Below are positions 1 through 5,287 of a stretch of 64,000 nt of DNA, one piece after another. This stretch comes from Shimia gijangensis. Its GTDB lineage: Bacteria > Pseudomonadota > Alphaproteobacteria > Rhodobacterales > Rhodobacteraceae. Location: positions 1-64,000 of the forward strand of contig NZ_FQZQ01000013.1 in NCBI RefSeq assembly GCF_900142085.1, written 5' to 3'. The notes beneath the pieces are model-generated. The model saw only the letters and a program-made list of their open reading frames with translations, ran no database searches and was not told where the DNA came from. The position numbers and the translations under genes are program-made. Position 1 is the stretch's first letter. Every line of letters begins with the position of its first letter.

Positions 1-80
1 TCGCAGCTGATAGCCCTTGTTTTGCTGAAGCTACCAGTTGAAGTGAGGCCTGCAGCGGGAACACAAACAACAAACCCGCA

Positions 81-162
81 TCCCCAGAGCGCCATTACTT
101 CAGCTAACTCATTGGTATCGCTTCAGCTTTTAGCCACTGCTAGGAGCCGTAGACCATGTCGG
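81..162. repeat. Left arm of perfect 82-bp inverted repeat around the integrase
   Basis: These 82 bases are the exact reverse complement of 1336-1417. Read on the plus strand the arm holds the last 14 bases of the tRNA-Arg 3' end (including CCA), then the 60-odd bases that form the integrase leader, then the integrase start ATG and the next four bases. It stops one base before the integrase stop codon, so the gene sits inside its own inverted 5' region. Identity ends abruptly at both sides (position 80 and 163 differ from the partner). Confidence 0.97.
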
Positions 163-163
163 C

Positions 164-1342
164 TCACGTGACGGCCTTCATCCACTTCCTGAGGACTTCC
201 AGTGGATAGCCAGAGCCATATCCGTGGCCTACTCCGTCGGTCTGCCAACCCCCGATCTGGTCAACGATGTCGGAGGGACACTCAACGGCTCTGAGGCGAT
301 CTCGCATCGAGTGACGGAAGCTATGCATCGAGCATCCTGCTGGCACGTATTTCTTCATCCATTTGTTCAGCGCGGCACTGGCTGCGTTGGCGTTGGTCGT
401 GTCGGTTTTGTTGTACCGTGGGAAGGCGAACTGGGAGGACGTCATCTGGTCGAGGATGCGTTCCGCTGCCCACCTTGCTGCACCTTCGAGCGGGACATCT
501 CGTTTGCTGCCCTTGGTCTTGAGACGACGCCATGGATGAGGTTGGACCCGAGCGAAAAGGAACCCGCCCTCGCCCTGAACAAAGTCCTCTCGGGTCAATC
601 CCGCAGCTTCTGCAAGGCGCATCCCTGTGTCCGACACCAAGGCGACAAGCCACCTAAGATCATCGTCCAGCTCTCTGCATTTCGCCTGAACCGTAGTGAG
701 GGCATCTGCAGGAACTGAAGTGCGATCAGTTACGCCAGCTGATCTGTCATAGTAGACACCCGCGAAGGGATTGTTCAGGGTGAGGCCCTGTTCACTGGCG
801 GCGAAGTTCGTTACGGCCCTGACTGTGCCGAAGACCCGGGTCATGCTGCTGCCTGCAAGACCACGAGCGATAAGGGCGTCGCGGAAAGCATTGGCATCGG
901 CCTTGGTGTAGGCATCAAGGTGTTTGTCTCCACAAGCGTCGATCACATACCCACATGCTCTCTCAGCAGCCTGCCGGAAGGACAAGGGGCGACCCTTTCC
1001 TTTGAGCTGCAGATAAATCCTGACGGCCTCTGACAAAGGGACAAATGATGAAGAGACAGAAATCTGTTGGTCAATGGCCTCTGCTCCTGCGGTCCTTTGC
1101 AGGCGCAACAAGTGCTTTCCCGGTAGTTCGGCGTCGCGACACCTCAGGTGATACCAGTATTCATCGAGCTGATCGGCGGCTCTTCTGGCTCTAACCTCGG
1201 CGATGTTCGGCGATTTTGTACGCAGAGAGTATGCAATCCGGGGCGAGGTATAGTGGTTTCTCAGCTCTCTCGGGATGCGGCGGCTGAAGTAGAAAACCCC
1301 GTCTTTCACGAAGGTGAACGGGCGTGAAATGGTCTCCGACAT
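164..1342 (-). CDS. Tyrosine-type site-specific recombinase (integrase)
   Basis: A 392-residue phage/island-type integrase that would catalyse integration and excision of an element at the adjacent tRNA-Arg. The N-terminal part (about residues 5-70, starting RPFTFVKDGVFYFSRRIP) resembles the DUF6538 arm-binding region common in alphaproteobacterial island integrases; residues ~100-190 are the core-binding SAM-like domain; the catalytic part carries the first Arg in DTGMRLAEAAGL, the H-x-x-R box in HSFRHSMRDRL, a Trp in IGGW, and the candidate nucleophile Tyr in GHGYGSGY. Start is the ATG at 1342, preceded by GGAG about nine bases upstream. The gene begins 62 bases after the tRNA 3' end and reads in the same direction, so it may be read through from the tRNA. 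The remainder of the element should lie to the left, outside the window. Confidence 0.93.
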   Translation of the reverse strand: MSETISRPFTFVKDGVFYFSRRIPRELRNHYTSPRIAYSLRTKSPNIAEVRARRAADQLDEYWYHLRCRDAELPGKHLLRLQRTAGAEAIDQQISVSSSFVPLSEAVRIYLQLKGKGRPLSFRQAAERACGYVIDACGDKHLDAYTKADANAFRDALIARGLAGSSMTRVFGTVRAVTNFAASEQGLTLNNPFAGVYYDRSAGVTDRTSVPADALTTVQAKCRELDDDLRWLVALVSDTGMRLAEAAGLTREDFVQGEGGFLFARVQPHPWRRLKTKGSKRDVPLEGAARWAAERILDQMTSSQFAFPRYNKTDTTNANAASAALNKWMKKYVPAGCSMHSFRHSMRDRLRAVECPSDIVDQIGGWQTDGVGHGYGSGYPLEVLRKWMKAVT

Positions 1343-1417
1343 GGTCTACGGCTCCTAGCAGTGGCTAAAAGCTGAAGCGATACCAATGAGTTAGCTGAAG
1401 TAATGGCGCTCTGGGGA
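1336..1417. repeat. Right arm of perfect 82-bp inverted repeat (tRNA 3' end plus integrase leader)
   Basis: Exact reverse complement of 81-162. This arm is in the natural context: on the minus strand it runs from inside the tRNA-Arg T-stem/acceptor 3' strand through the CCA, the integrase leader and its ATG. The shared tRNA portion (1404-1417) is a likely attachment-site core, as integrases of this type usually recombine in the 3' end of a tRNA gene. Confidence 0.97.
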
Positions 1418-1540: not shown

Positions 1541-2929
1541 TCATGTTTCCGCAACATCGCCCTTGGGCAGGCATATTTCAAAGGCCGTTCCGGTCTCGTC
1601 GGTCCTAAGAAGCAGCAATTTGCCGCCATGACCGCGCACAAGTTCGGCTGAAATGGCCAAACCCAGGCCCGACCCACCTTTGCGAATGCCCCCCTGAAAC
1701 GGCGTAAACAGGTGTTCACGTGCTTTGGGGGGCAAGCCCGGACCAGTATCGGTCACAGTGATGAACCAAGATGTATCATCCTCGCGTGCGGCCACGGCGA
1801 TTTCGCCGGGTTGGCTGGTGGCCACAATGGCCTGACGCGCATTGCGCACAAGGTTGGCAATCACCCGGTACAATTGTTCCGGGTCTGCCCGCACCTTGAG
1901 GCCCGCCGCAATGTCTTCGGCAAAGCTAAGGTCAAAGTCTTCGATTGCCAGACGTTCACTTTCCACTACGTCCGACACCACTTCCGTCAACAGGACATGG
2001 GTCAGTCGGGGGGGCGGTTCTTCGGCTTTGCCAAAGGCCAGCGTGCTTTCGCACAGATTTACCGCACGGGTGATGGAATTTACCAGTTTGGGCGCCATGC
2101 GTTTGACCGTCGGGTCTTCGCTCATCTCGATCCGGTCAGTGAACAATTGCGCCGAGGTCAGGATGTTCCGCAAGTCATGGCTCACTTTGGCCACGGCCTC
2201 ACCCAGTTGCGCCAGATGTTCTTTTTGTTTGAGCGATGCGGTCAATTCCACCTGAAGCGACTGCAAGGCCTCTTCGGCCTCGCGCAGCTCGGTCACACCA
2301 GCCGAGGGCTGAATGATCCGGCGGGCATCTTCCGGGGCCGCCGCATAGGATTTCATATAACTCACCACCCCACGAATGGGGCGGACCAGAAAACCACGCA
2401 CCGCGACAAACAGCATTGAGGCCGTGATCACCGAGATCACCGCCGACAGCCACAAAATGTTCAGCCCATAGTCAATCATTGCGCTGCGCAGGCCCGTGGT
2501 TTGCATGGTAACCTCGATCAACAGACCAGCTTCCCGCACAGGTGCTCCAATCACCCGGATCACCCGTTCTTCACGATCAAAAAGCCGCTTTACCGCATCG
2601 CCGATCAACTCGGCTGGCCCGGCTGCACGCAAATCAAAGGTGGCATCGATGGGCCGTGGCATCGGGGATGACAGGATCAGCTGGCGCATCTCGTCACGGC
2701 GCAGCACCACGTTGAACACTTCTGCATTGCGCAATAATTCGGCCTCAAGGTCTTCGCCAATCATATCGTCAGCCAGCAAAGCCAATGACGCGATCTGGGC
2801 GCGTTCAAGCCGCGACAGCAGGTAGTCTTCCCGGAAACGGGCAATAGAGGGCACAAAGATCAGCACTTCTGCCAGCATCACGAAGATGATGGTCAGGATC
2901 AGAAACCGGCCTGAAAGCGATCTCAGCAT
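1541..2929 (-). CDS. Membrane sensor histidine kinase
   Basis: About 462 residues from the ATG at 2929. Two membrane segments (near residues 10-30 and ~160-185) enclose a periplasmic sensor region; a HAMP-like stretch starts RPIRGVV. The H box is KVSHDLRNIL (phospho-accepting His), the N box NLVRNARQA, and the ATP-binding lid carries DTGPGLP and GGSGLGLAIS. The kinase would autophosphorylate and pass phosphate to a response regulator; none is encoded next to it, so the partner is unknown. A longer start at 2980 would overlap the upstream flavoprotein gene by 32 bases; I prefer 2929 because the membrane segment follows at once. It is the last gene of the TVP38-flavoprotein-kinase set. Confidence 0.9.
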   Translation of the reverse strand: MLRSLSGRFLILTIIFVMLAEVLIFVPSIARFREDYLLSRLERAQIASLALLADDMIGEDLEAELLRNAEVFNVVLRRDEMRQLILSSPMPRPIDATFDLRAAGPAELIGDAVKRLFDREERVIRVIGAPVREAGLLIEVTMQTTGLRSAMIDYGLNILWLSAVISVITASMLFVAVRGFLVRPIRGVVSYMKSYAAAPEDARRIIQPSAGVTELREAEEALQSLQVELTASLKQKEHLAQLGEAVAKVSHDLRNILTSAQLFTDRIEMSEDPTVKRMAPKLVNSITRAVNLCESTLAFGKAEEPPPRLTHVLLTEVVSDVVESERLAIEDFDLSFAEDIAAGLKVRADPEQLYRVIANLVRNARQAIVATSQPGEIAVAAREDDTSWFITVTDTGPGLPPKAREHLFTPFQGGIRKGGSGLGLAISAELVRGHGGKLLLLRTDETGTAFEICLPKGDVAET

Positions 2930-2948
2930 GCGTGTCCCATTTCGCGCC

Positions 2949-4367
2949 TCATGGCATCCAGCGTTGTACCAGCCGGACAATTTTCTTCACCCTAGGGCTA
3001 TCAAACAATCTGGGTGAGAAATAGGCCCCTGCCGCGCGTTTGCCAATTTCGCCCACCGTTGGATAGGGCGGCACCATGGCGGCAACCTCAGACATCTTCA
3101 TACGGTTGGCCAGTACCAGAGCCCAAAGATTGATGTGTTCACCCGCCTGATACCCAGCAATCGACACGCCCACTGGGCGGCCTTTGACCACCATAACCTT
3201 GATGAGGCCCCGCGCTTTGCGTTCAGCGATCAGACGATCATTGTGGTGCAGATCAAAACGCGCCACTTCCAAAGTATCCCCATGGGTTTCGCGGGCCTCA
3301 ACTTCGGTCAGACCCACCTGAGCCAGTTCAGGGTCCGTAAAGGTGGCGTGCGGAATGTGATCTGTGCGTTGCTTGGCAGGCAAACCGAACAATGCAGATC
3401 GGATGATCACTCCGGCATGATATCCTGCAACATGTGTAAATTGTTGGCCGCCTGTCACATCGCCAATGGCATAGGCCTTACGATTGCTGGTTTTCAGGCT
3501 GGCATCGACCGTGATTCCCGCACGATGCGTTTCAATTCCTGCCTCGCTCAAATTCAGACGATCAATGTTCGCCTTGCGCCCCACAGCTATCAACAGATGA
3601 GATCCGGTAAAGCTGTGCCCATCTTTGGTCTCAACGGTGATTTGGCCGTTCTGGTCGCTGATCTGTGTTGCTATTGTCTGTTCGGCAATCTCCACACCTT
3701 CGTTGCGCAGCGCATCCAACACAAACTCTGCCATTTCCGGATCATCCCGGCCGAGCGCCTTGGCGCCCTCAATCACAGTCACCTTGCAGCCCAATCGCAC
3801 ATGCGCTTGCGCCATTTCCATACCGATGGGCCCACCTCCTATGATCAACAGGTGGTCAGGTTTGTCGCGCAACTCAAACAAGGTTTCATTGGTCAGGTAC
3901 GGCACGTCTTTCAAACCGGGAATCGGCGGGACAAGCGGGCTTGAACCAGTCGCGATCACAACACGGCGTGCGGTGATAATCTGATCGCCGGCCTGCACCT
4001 CGGTTGGACTTAGGAAACTGCCAAACTCCGAAATCACCCGAACGCCCAAACTCTCAAATCGTTCCACGGAATCATTGGGCTCGATTTGGGCGACCACATT
4101 GGCCACGTGATCTTTGACCGCAGCATAATCCACGTCTGGCTGAACATCAGTTACGCCAAAAACAACTGAATGGGTTTGAGTGTGGGCAACCTTGGCGCTG
4201 GCCAGCAACGCCTTGGACGGCACACATCCATAGTTCAGACAGTCGCCCCCCATCTTGTGCCCCTCGAGCAGCACAACGTCGGCACCCATTTGAACAGCAC
4301 CCGACGCAACTGACAGCCCGCCAGACCCCGCGCCAATCACCAGCAGATCAGTTTTAATACGTTGCAT
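2949..4367 (-). CDS. Mercuric-reductase/dihydrolipoamide-dehydrogenase-like FAD oxidoreductase
   Basis: A 472-residue class I pyridine-nucleotide disulfide oxidoreductase. The N-terminal FAD dinucleotide fold is VIGAGSGGLSVA, followed by the redox-active pair in GGDCLNYGCVPSKAL; the NAD(P) fold is LLIIGGGPIGMEMAQA; YAIGDVTG marks the second FAD contact; the C-terminal dimerisation domain follows. It lacks the extra N-terminal HMA domain and the C-terminal Cys pair of true MerA, and the neighbours do not include lipoyl enzymes, so the substrate is unknown. Its ATG overlaps the stop of the TVP38-like gene (TAATG), which points to translational coupling and a shared role, often seen in proteobacteria. 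Confidence 0.9.
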   Translation of the reverse strand: MQRIKTDLLVIGAGSGGLSVASGAVQMGADVVLLEGHKMGGDCLNYGCVPSKALLASAKVAHTQTHSVVFGVTDVQPDVDYAAVKDHVANVVAQIEPNDSVERFESLGVRVISEFGSFLSPTEVQAGDQIITARRVVIATGSSPLVPPIPGLKDVPYLTNETLFELRDKPDHLLIIGGGPIGMEMAQAHVRLGCKVTVIEGAKALGRDDPEMAEFVLDALRNEGVEIAEQTIATQISDQNGQITVETKDGHSFTGSHLLIAVGRKANIDRLNLSEAGIETHRAGITVDASLKTSNRKAYAIGDVTGGQQFTHVAGYHAGVIIRSALFGLPAKQRTDHIPHATFTDPELAQVGLTEVEARETHGDTLEVARFDLHHNDRLIAERKARGLIKVMVVKGRPVGVSIAGYQAGEHINLWALVLANRMKMSEVAAMVPPYPTVGEIGKRAAGAYFSPRLFDSPRVKKIVRLVQRWMP

Positions 4368-5098
4368 TACAGTTCATCTCCGCCACGCAGAAATTTCAGG
4401 ACAATCGGCAAGGCCGCAAGCGCACAAAGGCCCAGGATAGGTAACAGAATATGGGGTTCAAAGATCACGCCAAGATTCGGCGCTTGCCCTTTTGCGAAAA
4501 CCTCCCCCAGACCGGCGCCGACAGACGTGTAAACCACACCACCCGGAATAATGCCGACAAAGGTCGAGATCACAAAGCGGCGCAATGGCACGCCCACGAT
4601 AGCAGGTATCAGATTGGCCACAAAAAACGGCACCAGCGGCACCAGCCGGATCAGAAACAACATCGACCACTGATTCTCATCAATGCCGTCCTTAATACGC
4701 TTCACACGACCTTGCGAGGTGTCCATTTTCACAGCCATACGTTCACCGAATCCCCAGCGTGCCGCCAGAAAGATCAGAGTGGCCCCAATTGTGGCGGCAG
4801 AAATGTTGAACAATGAGCCTGCAATCGTGCCAAACAGAAAGCCCCCAGTCAGCGAGGCCATCAGAGCTCCGGGCAATGAAAAAGCGACAATGGCGACGTA
4901 AACCATCATGAAAACCACTGCGGCCAAGGCGTAATGTGCATCACGGTAGGCCAGCAATGCCTCGCGATTATTGCGCAGGACTTCGAAACTCAGCGCGTCG
5001 CCGAGCGTCGCTGCCCCAATCCCCGCCACCACGAGAATCGCAGCAAATGGCAGCATTCGTCCCCATCCTGCTCCGCCGGTATTGGTCATATCGCTCAT
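4367..5098 (-). CDS. TVP38/TMEM64 (SNARE-associated Golgi/DedA-like) membrane protein
   Basis: About 243 residues with several hydrophobic spans (MLPFAAILVVAG, AAVVFMMVYVAIVAF, a re-entrant-like GALMASLTGGFLFGTIAG, and C-terminal LLPILGLCALAALP). The GxxxG-rich segment and the conserved RLVPLVPFFVANLIPAIVGV block are typical of the TVP38/TMEM64 group of the DedA superfamily, thought to move lipids or solutes across membranes. Start is uncertain: 5098 is chosen, but an in-frame ATG at 5131 adds eleven residues and neither has a clear ribosome site. It is the first gene of a three-gene set with the flavoprotein and histidine kinase. Confidence 0.85.
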   Translation of the reverse strand: MSDMTNTGGAGWGRMLPFAAILVVAGIGAATLGDALSFEVLRNNREALLAYRDAHYALAAVVFMMVYVAIVAFSLPGALMASLTGGFLFGTIAGSLFNISAATIGATLIFLAARWGFGERMAVKMDTSQGRVKRIKDGIDENQWSMLFLIRLVPLVPFFVANLIPAIVGVPLRRFVISTFVGIIPGGVVYTSVGAGLGEVFAKGQAPNLGVIFEPHILLPILGLCALAALPIVLKFLRGGDEL

Positions 5099-5287
5099 CT
5101 TGTGTTCATCTGGTTGTGTCAATTGCAACATGAGACAGCCAGAAAAGAAACAACAGGCCGATCACGGGCGCTTGATCGCAAACAGAGAAGTCGTGATAAA
5201 GGCGCTTGAAAATAACGGGTTTTGAAACAAACCGTGTGCGGGCGGGCAGTTTTTATTGCAAAACGTTGCAAAACCCGGTTGTGGCGT

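Follow-up and report, generated by a model that had tools for sequence, protein, structure and literature searches.

A putative second, inverted attachment site behind the integrase gene of tRNA-integrated elements in Shimia gijangensis and other Alphaproteobacteria

Introduction

Why should an integrase gene be followed by an inverted copy of its own 5' region? The question is raised by the first bases of a 64,000-nt stretch of the Shimia gijangensis genome (contig NZ_FQZQ01000013.1, positions 1 to 64,000; hereafter the window), which is contig C34 of that genome from base 1 and in which the tyrosine recombinase gene int lies beside a tRNA-Arg gene. We propose, with a probability of roughly 0.6, that this locus is the tRNA-side end of a tRNA-integrated mobile element, and that the element forms a circle on which two inverted attP attachment sites recombine in a manner resembling that of the yeast 2-micron plasmid.

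Structure of the integrase locus

The initial annotation described a perfect 82-nt inverted repeat around int, and the repeat is as described: bases 81-162 are the reverse complement of bases 1336-1417 at 100% identity, with all coordinates correct, and 1173 nt separate the two arms. A 100% match over 82 nt is far above chance expectation. The contents of the arms agree with that description as well, the right arm including the 3' end of tRNA-Arg (14 nt, 1404-1417), the leader, and the int ATG with four further bases (1336-1342), and the left arm ending at base 162, one base short of the int stop codon (164-166). The features of the locus, where X denotes the predicted far end of the element and core the attachment (att) sequence copied from the tRNA, are as follows.

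1-80, + strand: X, predicted element end abutting attR, here as the inner inverted copy behind int (bases 1-95 of contig C71 equal window 1-95)
81-94, + strand: att core of the predicted inverted attP, a copy of the tRNA-Arg 3' end identical to 1404-1417
81-162, + strand: left arm, consisting of core, leader and ATGTCGG; with 1-80 it reads X-core-leader, the predicted attP
164-1342, - strand: int, a 392-aa tyrosine recombinase with an N-terminal DUF6538 domain
1336-1417, - strand: right arm, with the int start codon, the leader with an AGGAG box and the tRNA 3' end; attL side
1343-1403, - strand: leader between the tRNA end and the int ATG
1404-1417, - strand: att core at attL, the last 14 nt of tRNA-Arg
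1404-1480, - strand: tRNA-Arg(ACG), the integration target (ARAGORN)
1541-2980, - strand: sensor-kinase-like gene (479 aa, function by sequence reading), chromosomal, flanking the target outside the element

The Int protein contains the phage-integrase domain PF00589 (E=2e-11), and its residues R242, K275, H340, R343, W366, Y375 and Y379 are invariant across seven aligned members, the catalytic ones among them being presumed from general knowledge of such enzymes; no PDB sequence matched Int at E<=0.01. Together with X, the left arm reads X-core-leader, as expected for attP, and we interpret it as an attP lying inverted behind int; X-core-leader structures like this one were compiled at 41 loci.

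Element ends and a candidate unoccupied site

The left end of the element, which the initial annotation had proposed to determine, appears to be X. The first 95 bases of contig C71 are identical to window 1-95, and the two sequences diverge directly after the tRNA-derived core TCCCCAGAGCGCCAT. Since the start of C71 reads X-core-chromosome, with the core at C71 81-94, we assign C71 to attR, the right side of the window to attL, and X (window 1-80) to the far end of the element. In the window, X is truncated by the contig start and matches the start of contig C33 at 85%. The annotation was right that ordinary tRNA-integrated islands carry direct att repeats; these are also present here, as the cores at 1404-1417 and at C71 81-94, and the inverted attP exists in addition to them. 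When the start of C71 was searched in 25 genomes of the genus, one matched at the core (G1118:C6, locus L202). There, an 81% homologue of the window's kinase-like gene, tRNA-Arg(ACG) and the core are followed by TAGAATTCCAAGG as on C71, an order consistent with an unoccupied tRNA-Arg site in a congener, the match to C71 extending over ~60 nt only.

Recurrence of the layout in related genomes

The same genome contains a second copy, which lies beside tRNA-Thr(TGT) where contig C33 begins; its Int protein is 89% identical to that of the window, and its arms form a perfect 84-nt pair carrying the Thr core. In this locus (L010), a 72-aa open reading frame (ORF) at 286-504 stands between int and the inverted attP. 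Scanning genome contigs yielded 33 related loci; many of them have the repeat after int and lie at tRNA-Phe, -Thr, -Leu or -Arg genes. Relatives of Int at E<=1e-40 are encoded in 41 of the 390 order-level genomes searched with the window Int and in 10 of the 385 class-level genomes searched with the Int of locus L093, the window genome being counted in both. The leader-type repeat was present in 14 of 19 stretches from the class matches, in six families besides that of the window. Overall, the layout was found in seven families of Alphaproteobacteria, including single-contig genomes and the complete megaplasmid of Ruegeria TM1040.

Merging loci by identical int DNA only, so that one species may count twice, reduced 124 rows to 83 loci, of which 54 have intact and 29 broken int ORFs; a tRNA lies at most 450 nt upstream of int in 61 of the 83. 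Where 150 nt or more follow int, the leader repeat (scored at E<=1e-10) is carried by 45 of 51 loci with an intact int vs 5 of 26 with a broken one; over all loci the counts are 47 of 54 vs 6 of 29. The intact integrases without it are those of L024, L050, L091, L161, L163, L169 and L171. Among them, L024 retains 23 nt of the leader repeat, L050 retains the inverted attP at its end and has lost the normal int start, and L161 retains 18 nt of inverted leader together with a 383-nt mirrored X (100% identity). In a tree of the 54 intact integrases and 19 controls, the 47 repeat-bearing integrases lie on one side of a 99/99 branch, the seven without repeat fall inside that same side, and the controls form long branches. 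None of 20 other DUF6538 integrase loci with ~10 kb flanks (16 with a tRNA upstream) has such a repeat within ~6 kb.

Several individual loci may be recorded here. L050 is an IMG/VR contig of 12,004 bases in which long ORFs that read as phage-tail-like are followed by int and the inverted leader-core-X. L161 (G600) contains at 1918-5210 an apparent array, in which 147 nt comprising the leader and the start of int recur in direct orientation past the far X. The S. gijangensis genome has two more DUF6538 integrase loci (G000:C17:5210 and G000:C38:28052), with no inverted repeat in the short stretches examined.

Homogenisation of the arms and use of different tRNA targets

Among loci whose leader arms reach 60 nt or more, the arms match perfectly in 31 of 44 with an intact int vs 0 of 5 with a broken one (Fisher p=0.0045, with loci treated as unrelated), and loci with a broken int have lost either the arm match or the repeat itself. 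Between loci, leaders are identical in 0 of 595 pairs, with a median identity of 59.7% (35 loci). Because the arms are often identical within a locus and never between loci, the two copies are homogenised, being kept alike by recombination or gene conversion. Close relatives occupy different tRNAs: in the tree, the window (Arg) groups with members at Thr and Phe tRNAs. The core found in both arms is that of the tRNA now occupied.

The initial annotation had also considered that the left arm might be the remnant of a second integrase locus facing the other way. We discard this explanation: the left arm and its flank form a complete X-core-leader that is conserved in the clade and homogenised with the attL leader, and in 37 of 53 repeat loci the arm reaches 0-10 nt into int, most commonly to +6 (17 loci). 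At the other edge, the repeat includes 14-17 nt of the tRNA in 35 of the 42 repeat loci that have one, and the tRNA end is located at -62 from the int ATG in 18 of these 42.

Complete elements, X copies and cargo

As read from the assembled loci, the complete integrated layout is shown to be tRNA-core-leader-int-(leader-core-X, inverted)-cargo-X-core-flank. Among the 23 repeat loci in which 2.5 kb or more follow the arm, 11 have a second, mirrored X; its identity to the first copy is at least 98.9% in nine of them, 96.9% in L158 and 88.2% in L170. In two single-contig genomes, X spans 2265 nt at 100% in an element of 13.3 kb (L082) and 1259 nt at 99.84% in an element of 7.9 kb (L093). On the TM1040 megaplasmid, X spans 1148 nt at 100%, with a duplicated BRO-family gene inside, in an element of 12.8 kb, and in L083 it spans 588 nt at 99.83% in an element of 10.4 kb. 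The L023 element is 4.1 kb long and consists of int and one large ATPase ORF, its repeats measuring 85 nt (97.6% identity) and 200 nt (100%); that of L039, where int is broken, measures 5.6 kb. Eight loci lack a second X though 9-17 kb are present (L029, L033, L049, L084, L086, L087, L155 and L156), and L087 has an attR-like direct repeat without X. The contig ends at most 1 kb behind int in 23 of the 54 intact loci, as a repeated X would lead one to expect.

Type I restriction-modification genes are part of the cargo in L082, L083 and TM1040. In a scan of the compiled loci other than the window, an ATPase of ~640 aa with the motif SLDPGxGKTT was detected in 11, two of which (L049 and L097) have short pieces of it only. 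Its family matches are weak, PHROGs gave no convincing match, and no PDB sequence matched at E<=1. Two predicted structures have mean predicted local distance difference test (pLDDT) scores of 57.1 and 62.1, and fold matches of the first, a low-confidence model, were mostly superfamily 2 (SF2) helicases with template modelling (TM) scores of ~0.2, which weakly suggests that the ATPase is SF2-helicase-like. The cargo of the window genome itself was not found: the ATPase query returned nothing there, and the tRNA-Thr core occurs only in C33.

Relatives of the ATPase also occur at L194 (9938-11806), with no int match nearby and a tRNA-Arg(CCG) 290 bases behind, and on an Azospirillum plasmid (NZ_CP032346.1, 889787-891454; 37% identity). 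In addition, L031 and L039 carry related ORFs (346 and 335 aa) with MTIST-like starts and internal direct repeats, located between int and the inverted attP.

Orientation of int and cargo

In all 61 loci that have a tRNA at most 450 nt away, int is directed away from that tRNA. A flipped int, with the tRNA behind the arm, was found in none of 12 repeat loci lacking a full upstream tRNA, five of which offered 1.5 kb of sequence there. The ATPase gene runs opposite to int in L017, L019, L029, L083 and L085, runs with it in L023, L051 and L087, and is present on both sides in L082, where it is located in X; this count leaves out the fragments in L049 and L097. A 9.5-kb block of L158 has an inverted counterpart in L165 (74.8% identity), where int is broken by the criterion used and the repeat is down to 17 nt. 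The varied cargo orientation fits an inversion of circle halves, and would also be compatible with independent acquisition.

Passenger ORFs and a candidate promoter in X

Where a gap separates int from the inverted attP, it often holds a passenger ORF of 72-437 aa that faces int (L010, L060, L155, L156, L158, L159, L168 and L170); those of L156 and L159 begin at the ATG of the arm itself. In other gaps (L028, L031, L039, L090 and L095), the largest or better-supported ORF runs in the direction of int. The idea of a gene that is always driven by the inverted leader was rejected, given the mixed orientation of these ORFs. In X itself, a TTGAC box 78-95 nt outside the core points toward the core in 24 of 37 loci; compared with shuffled sequences, only 8 of 37 sites are significant at p<=0.05, and 0 of 37 in the reverse direction, in a search that itself favours TTGAC. 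A GTGCCTGTAACGGGAA-like motif stands near the core in many of the 37 X sequences, and the two motifs are possible promoter or protein-binding sites, the sequence being suggestive of a promoter in X.

Proposed mechanism and alternatives

Excision by tyrosine integrases, through recombination of attL with attR, yields a circle. For the element proposed here, this circle would carry X-core-leader twice in inverted orientation, with int on one side and the cargo on the other. Int, with or without host homologous recombination, would recombine the two inverted repeats, inverting one half of the circle against the other and keeping the repeats alike, which would then stay matched also after a move to a tRNA with a different core. 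Recombination during replication might lead to a burst of double rolling-circle copying before reintegration. Precedents and related findings have been published: Flp acts on head-to-head Flp recognition target (FRT) sites in the 599-bp repeats of the 2-micron plasmid, and this action is thought to switch the replication mode of that plasmid (PMC6594588); an archaeal tRNA-integrating integrase inverts in vitro between inverted att sites (PMC5495485); and double rolling-circle replication stimulates recombination at inverted repeats (PMC3147054). The further proposal, that Int recombines the two attPs during replication and so amplifies the circle before reintegration, making it a bacterial counterpart of the 2-micron plasmid whose refreshed cores permit tRNA switching, is tentative, and we hold it to be possible rather than probable. 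The inversion substrate named by the initial annotation survives as the best reading in the form of one circle half inverting against the other; a freely flipping chromosomal int does not, with 61 of 61 genes in one orientation.

Several observations weigh against the proposed recombining circle. All evidence comes from assembled sequences, and no circle, inversion or copy-number change was observed in them. The single orientation of int indicates that the int half is not freely flipping once integrated, and the cargo orientations differ between distinct elements, the comparison not being one among strains that share an element. The second X was not seen in 12 of the 23 loci, some on short contigs and others on long ones; the ATPase is present in only some elements; no origin of replication was identified in the elements, no search having been aimed at origins; and 7 of 54 intact integrases lack the leader repeat, two of them having less than 200 nt behind int. 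At the candidate unoccupied site, the match between L202 and C71 is short (~60 nt), and the congener's homologue of the next C71 gene sits on a different contig, so that the comparison supports synteny as far as the site only.

Of the other explanations, the strongest is that Int serves integration and excision only, the repeats being homogenised by homologous recombination and the second attP having no site-specific role. X copies of up to 2265 nt at 100% are ample substrate for such recombination, and homogenisation extends far past the core; on the other hand, the leader repeat is full-length in L087 (86 nt at 100%) without a second X, and most loci with a broken int lack it (present in 5 of 26 vs 45 of 51 intact), so we regard this explanation as unlikely, though a serious competitor. 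A less probable one, which we consider doubtful, is an expression switch, in which a promoter in X would read through the core against the integrated int and silence it until a flip of the int segment turned it on. The TTGAC boxes pointing to the core in 24 of 37 loci are in its favour, and the uniform orientation of int could represent the silent state; however, only 8 of these 37 differ from shuffles at p<=0.05 in a search favouring TTGAC, no flipped int was seen among the 61 loci with a tRNA, and passenger ORFs between int and attP occur in either orientation. It is more improbable still that the inverted attP is a spare attachment site by which an integrated copy captures further elements, forming arrays at one tRNA. 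Arrays do occur in L082, where a second int begins ~95 nt behind attR, and in L161, with its direct leader copy behind the far X, but arrays also form via attR, where both examples lie, and the idea leaves the mirrored X copies unexplained. An assembly or amplification chimera at the contig edge, as the initial annotation had cautioned, could account for a left arm at the contig start and for the 23 of 54 intact loci whose contigs end at most 1 kb past int, but it is practically dismissed by the second locus in the genome, the single-contig genomes and the complete megaplasmid, the contigs probably ending because X is repeated.

Relation to known systems

The proposed recombining circle most resembles the 2-micron plasmid, in which a tyrosine recombinase gene and two inverted sites inside long identical repeats split the circle (PMC6594588). 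The inferred circle would be split in the same way wherever a second X is present (11 of 23 loci), and not, as far as seen, in the other 12. Unlike the 2-micron plasmid, the element is bacterial, integrates at tRNAs and carries cargo such as type I restriction-modification genes, and its circle is inferred. As in tRNA-integrated islands, int lies beside the tRNA, a core is present at attL and at attR, and the tRNA stays whole. Islands with tyrosine integrases have one attP after excision; unlike them, the element family carries a second, inverted attP and mirrored X copies.

The integrase of Thermococcus pTN3 is likewise a tRNA-integrating tyrosine recombinase, and it inverts DNA between inverted att sites in vitro; these sites were on chromosomes or test plasmids, and paired inverted attPs within the element are not seen in the accessible parts of that work (PMC5495485). 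SE/Tn554-like elements are also bacterial and moved by tyrosine recombinases, with two recombinase genes between imperfect inverted repeats of 13-19 bp (PMC10214605). Unlike these, the window family has one int, tRNA targets and long identical repeats, and the L023 element, on which the comparison was judged, with its single int and single ATPase ORF, lacks the SE/Tn554-like features. Shufflons and phase-variable segments occur in both orientations in place. They share with our loci a recombinase gene adjoining inverted recombination sites (PMC8138268), and differ in that int was found in one orientation in 61 of 61 loci. The literature searched, which covered few subscription journals and was in part accessible, contained no description of the combined layout and no mention of DUF6538. 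The parts are known (tRNA islands, Flp-type topology), and their combination is undescribed as far as that literature extends.

Biological implications

Elements of this kind are easily missed, because draft assemblies cut them apart at contig ends close behind int. If the proposed recombining circle is correct, a layout known from a eukaryotic selfish plasmid would also exist among the mobile islands of bacteria, some of them with type I restriction-modification genes. The family would then offer a natural test case for recombinase-driven amplification, and for an integrase that changes its tRNA targets while both of its att sites remain matched.
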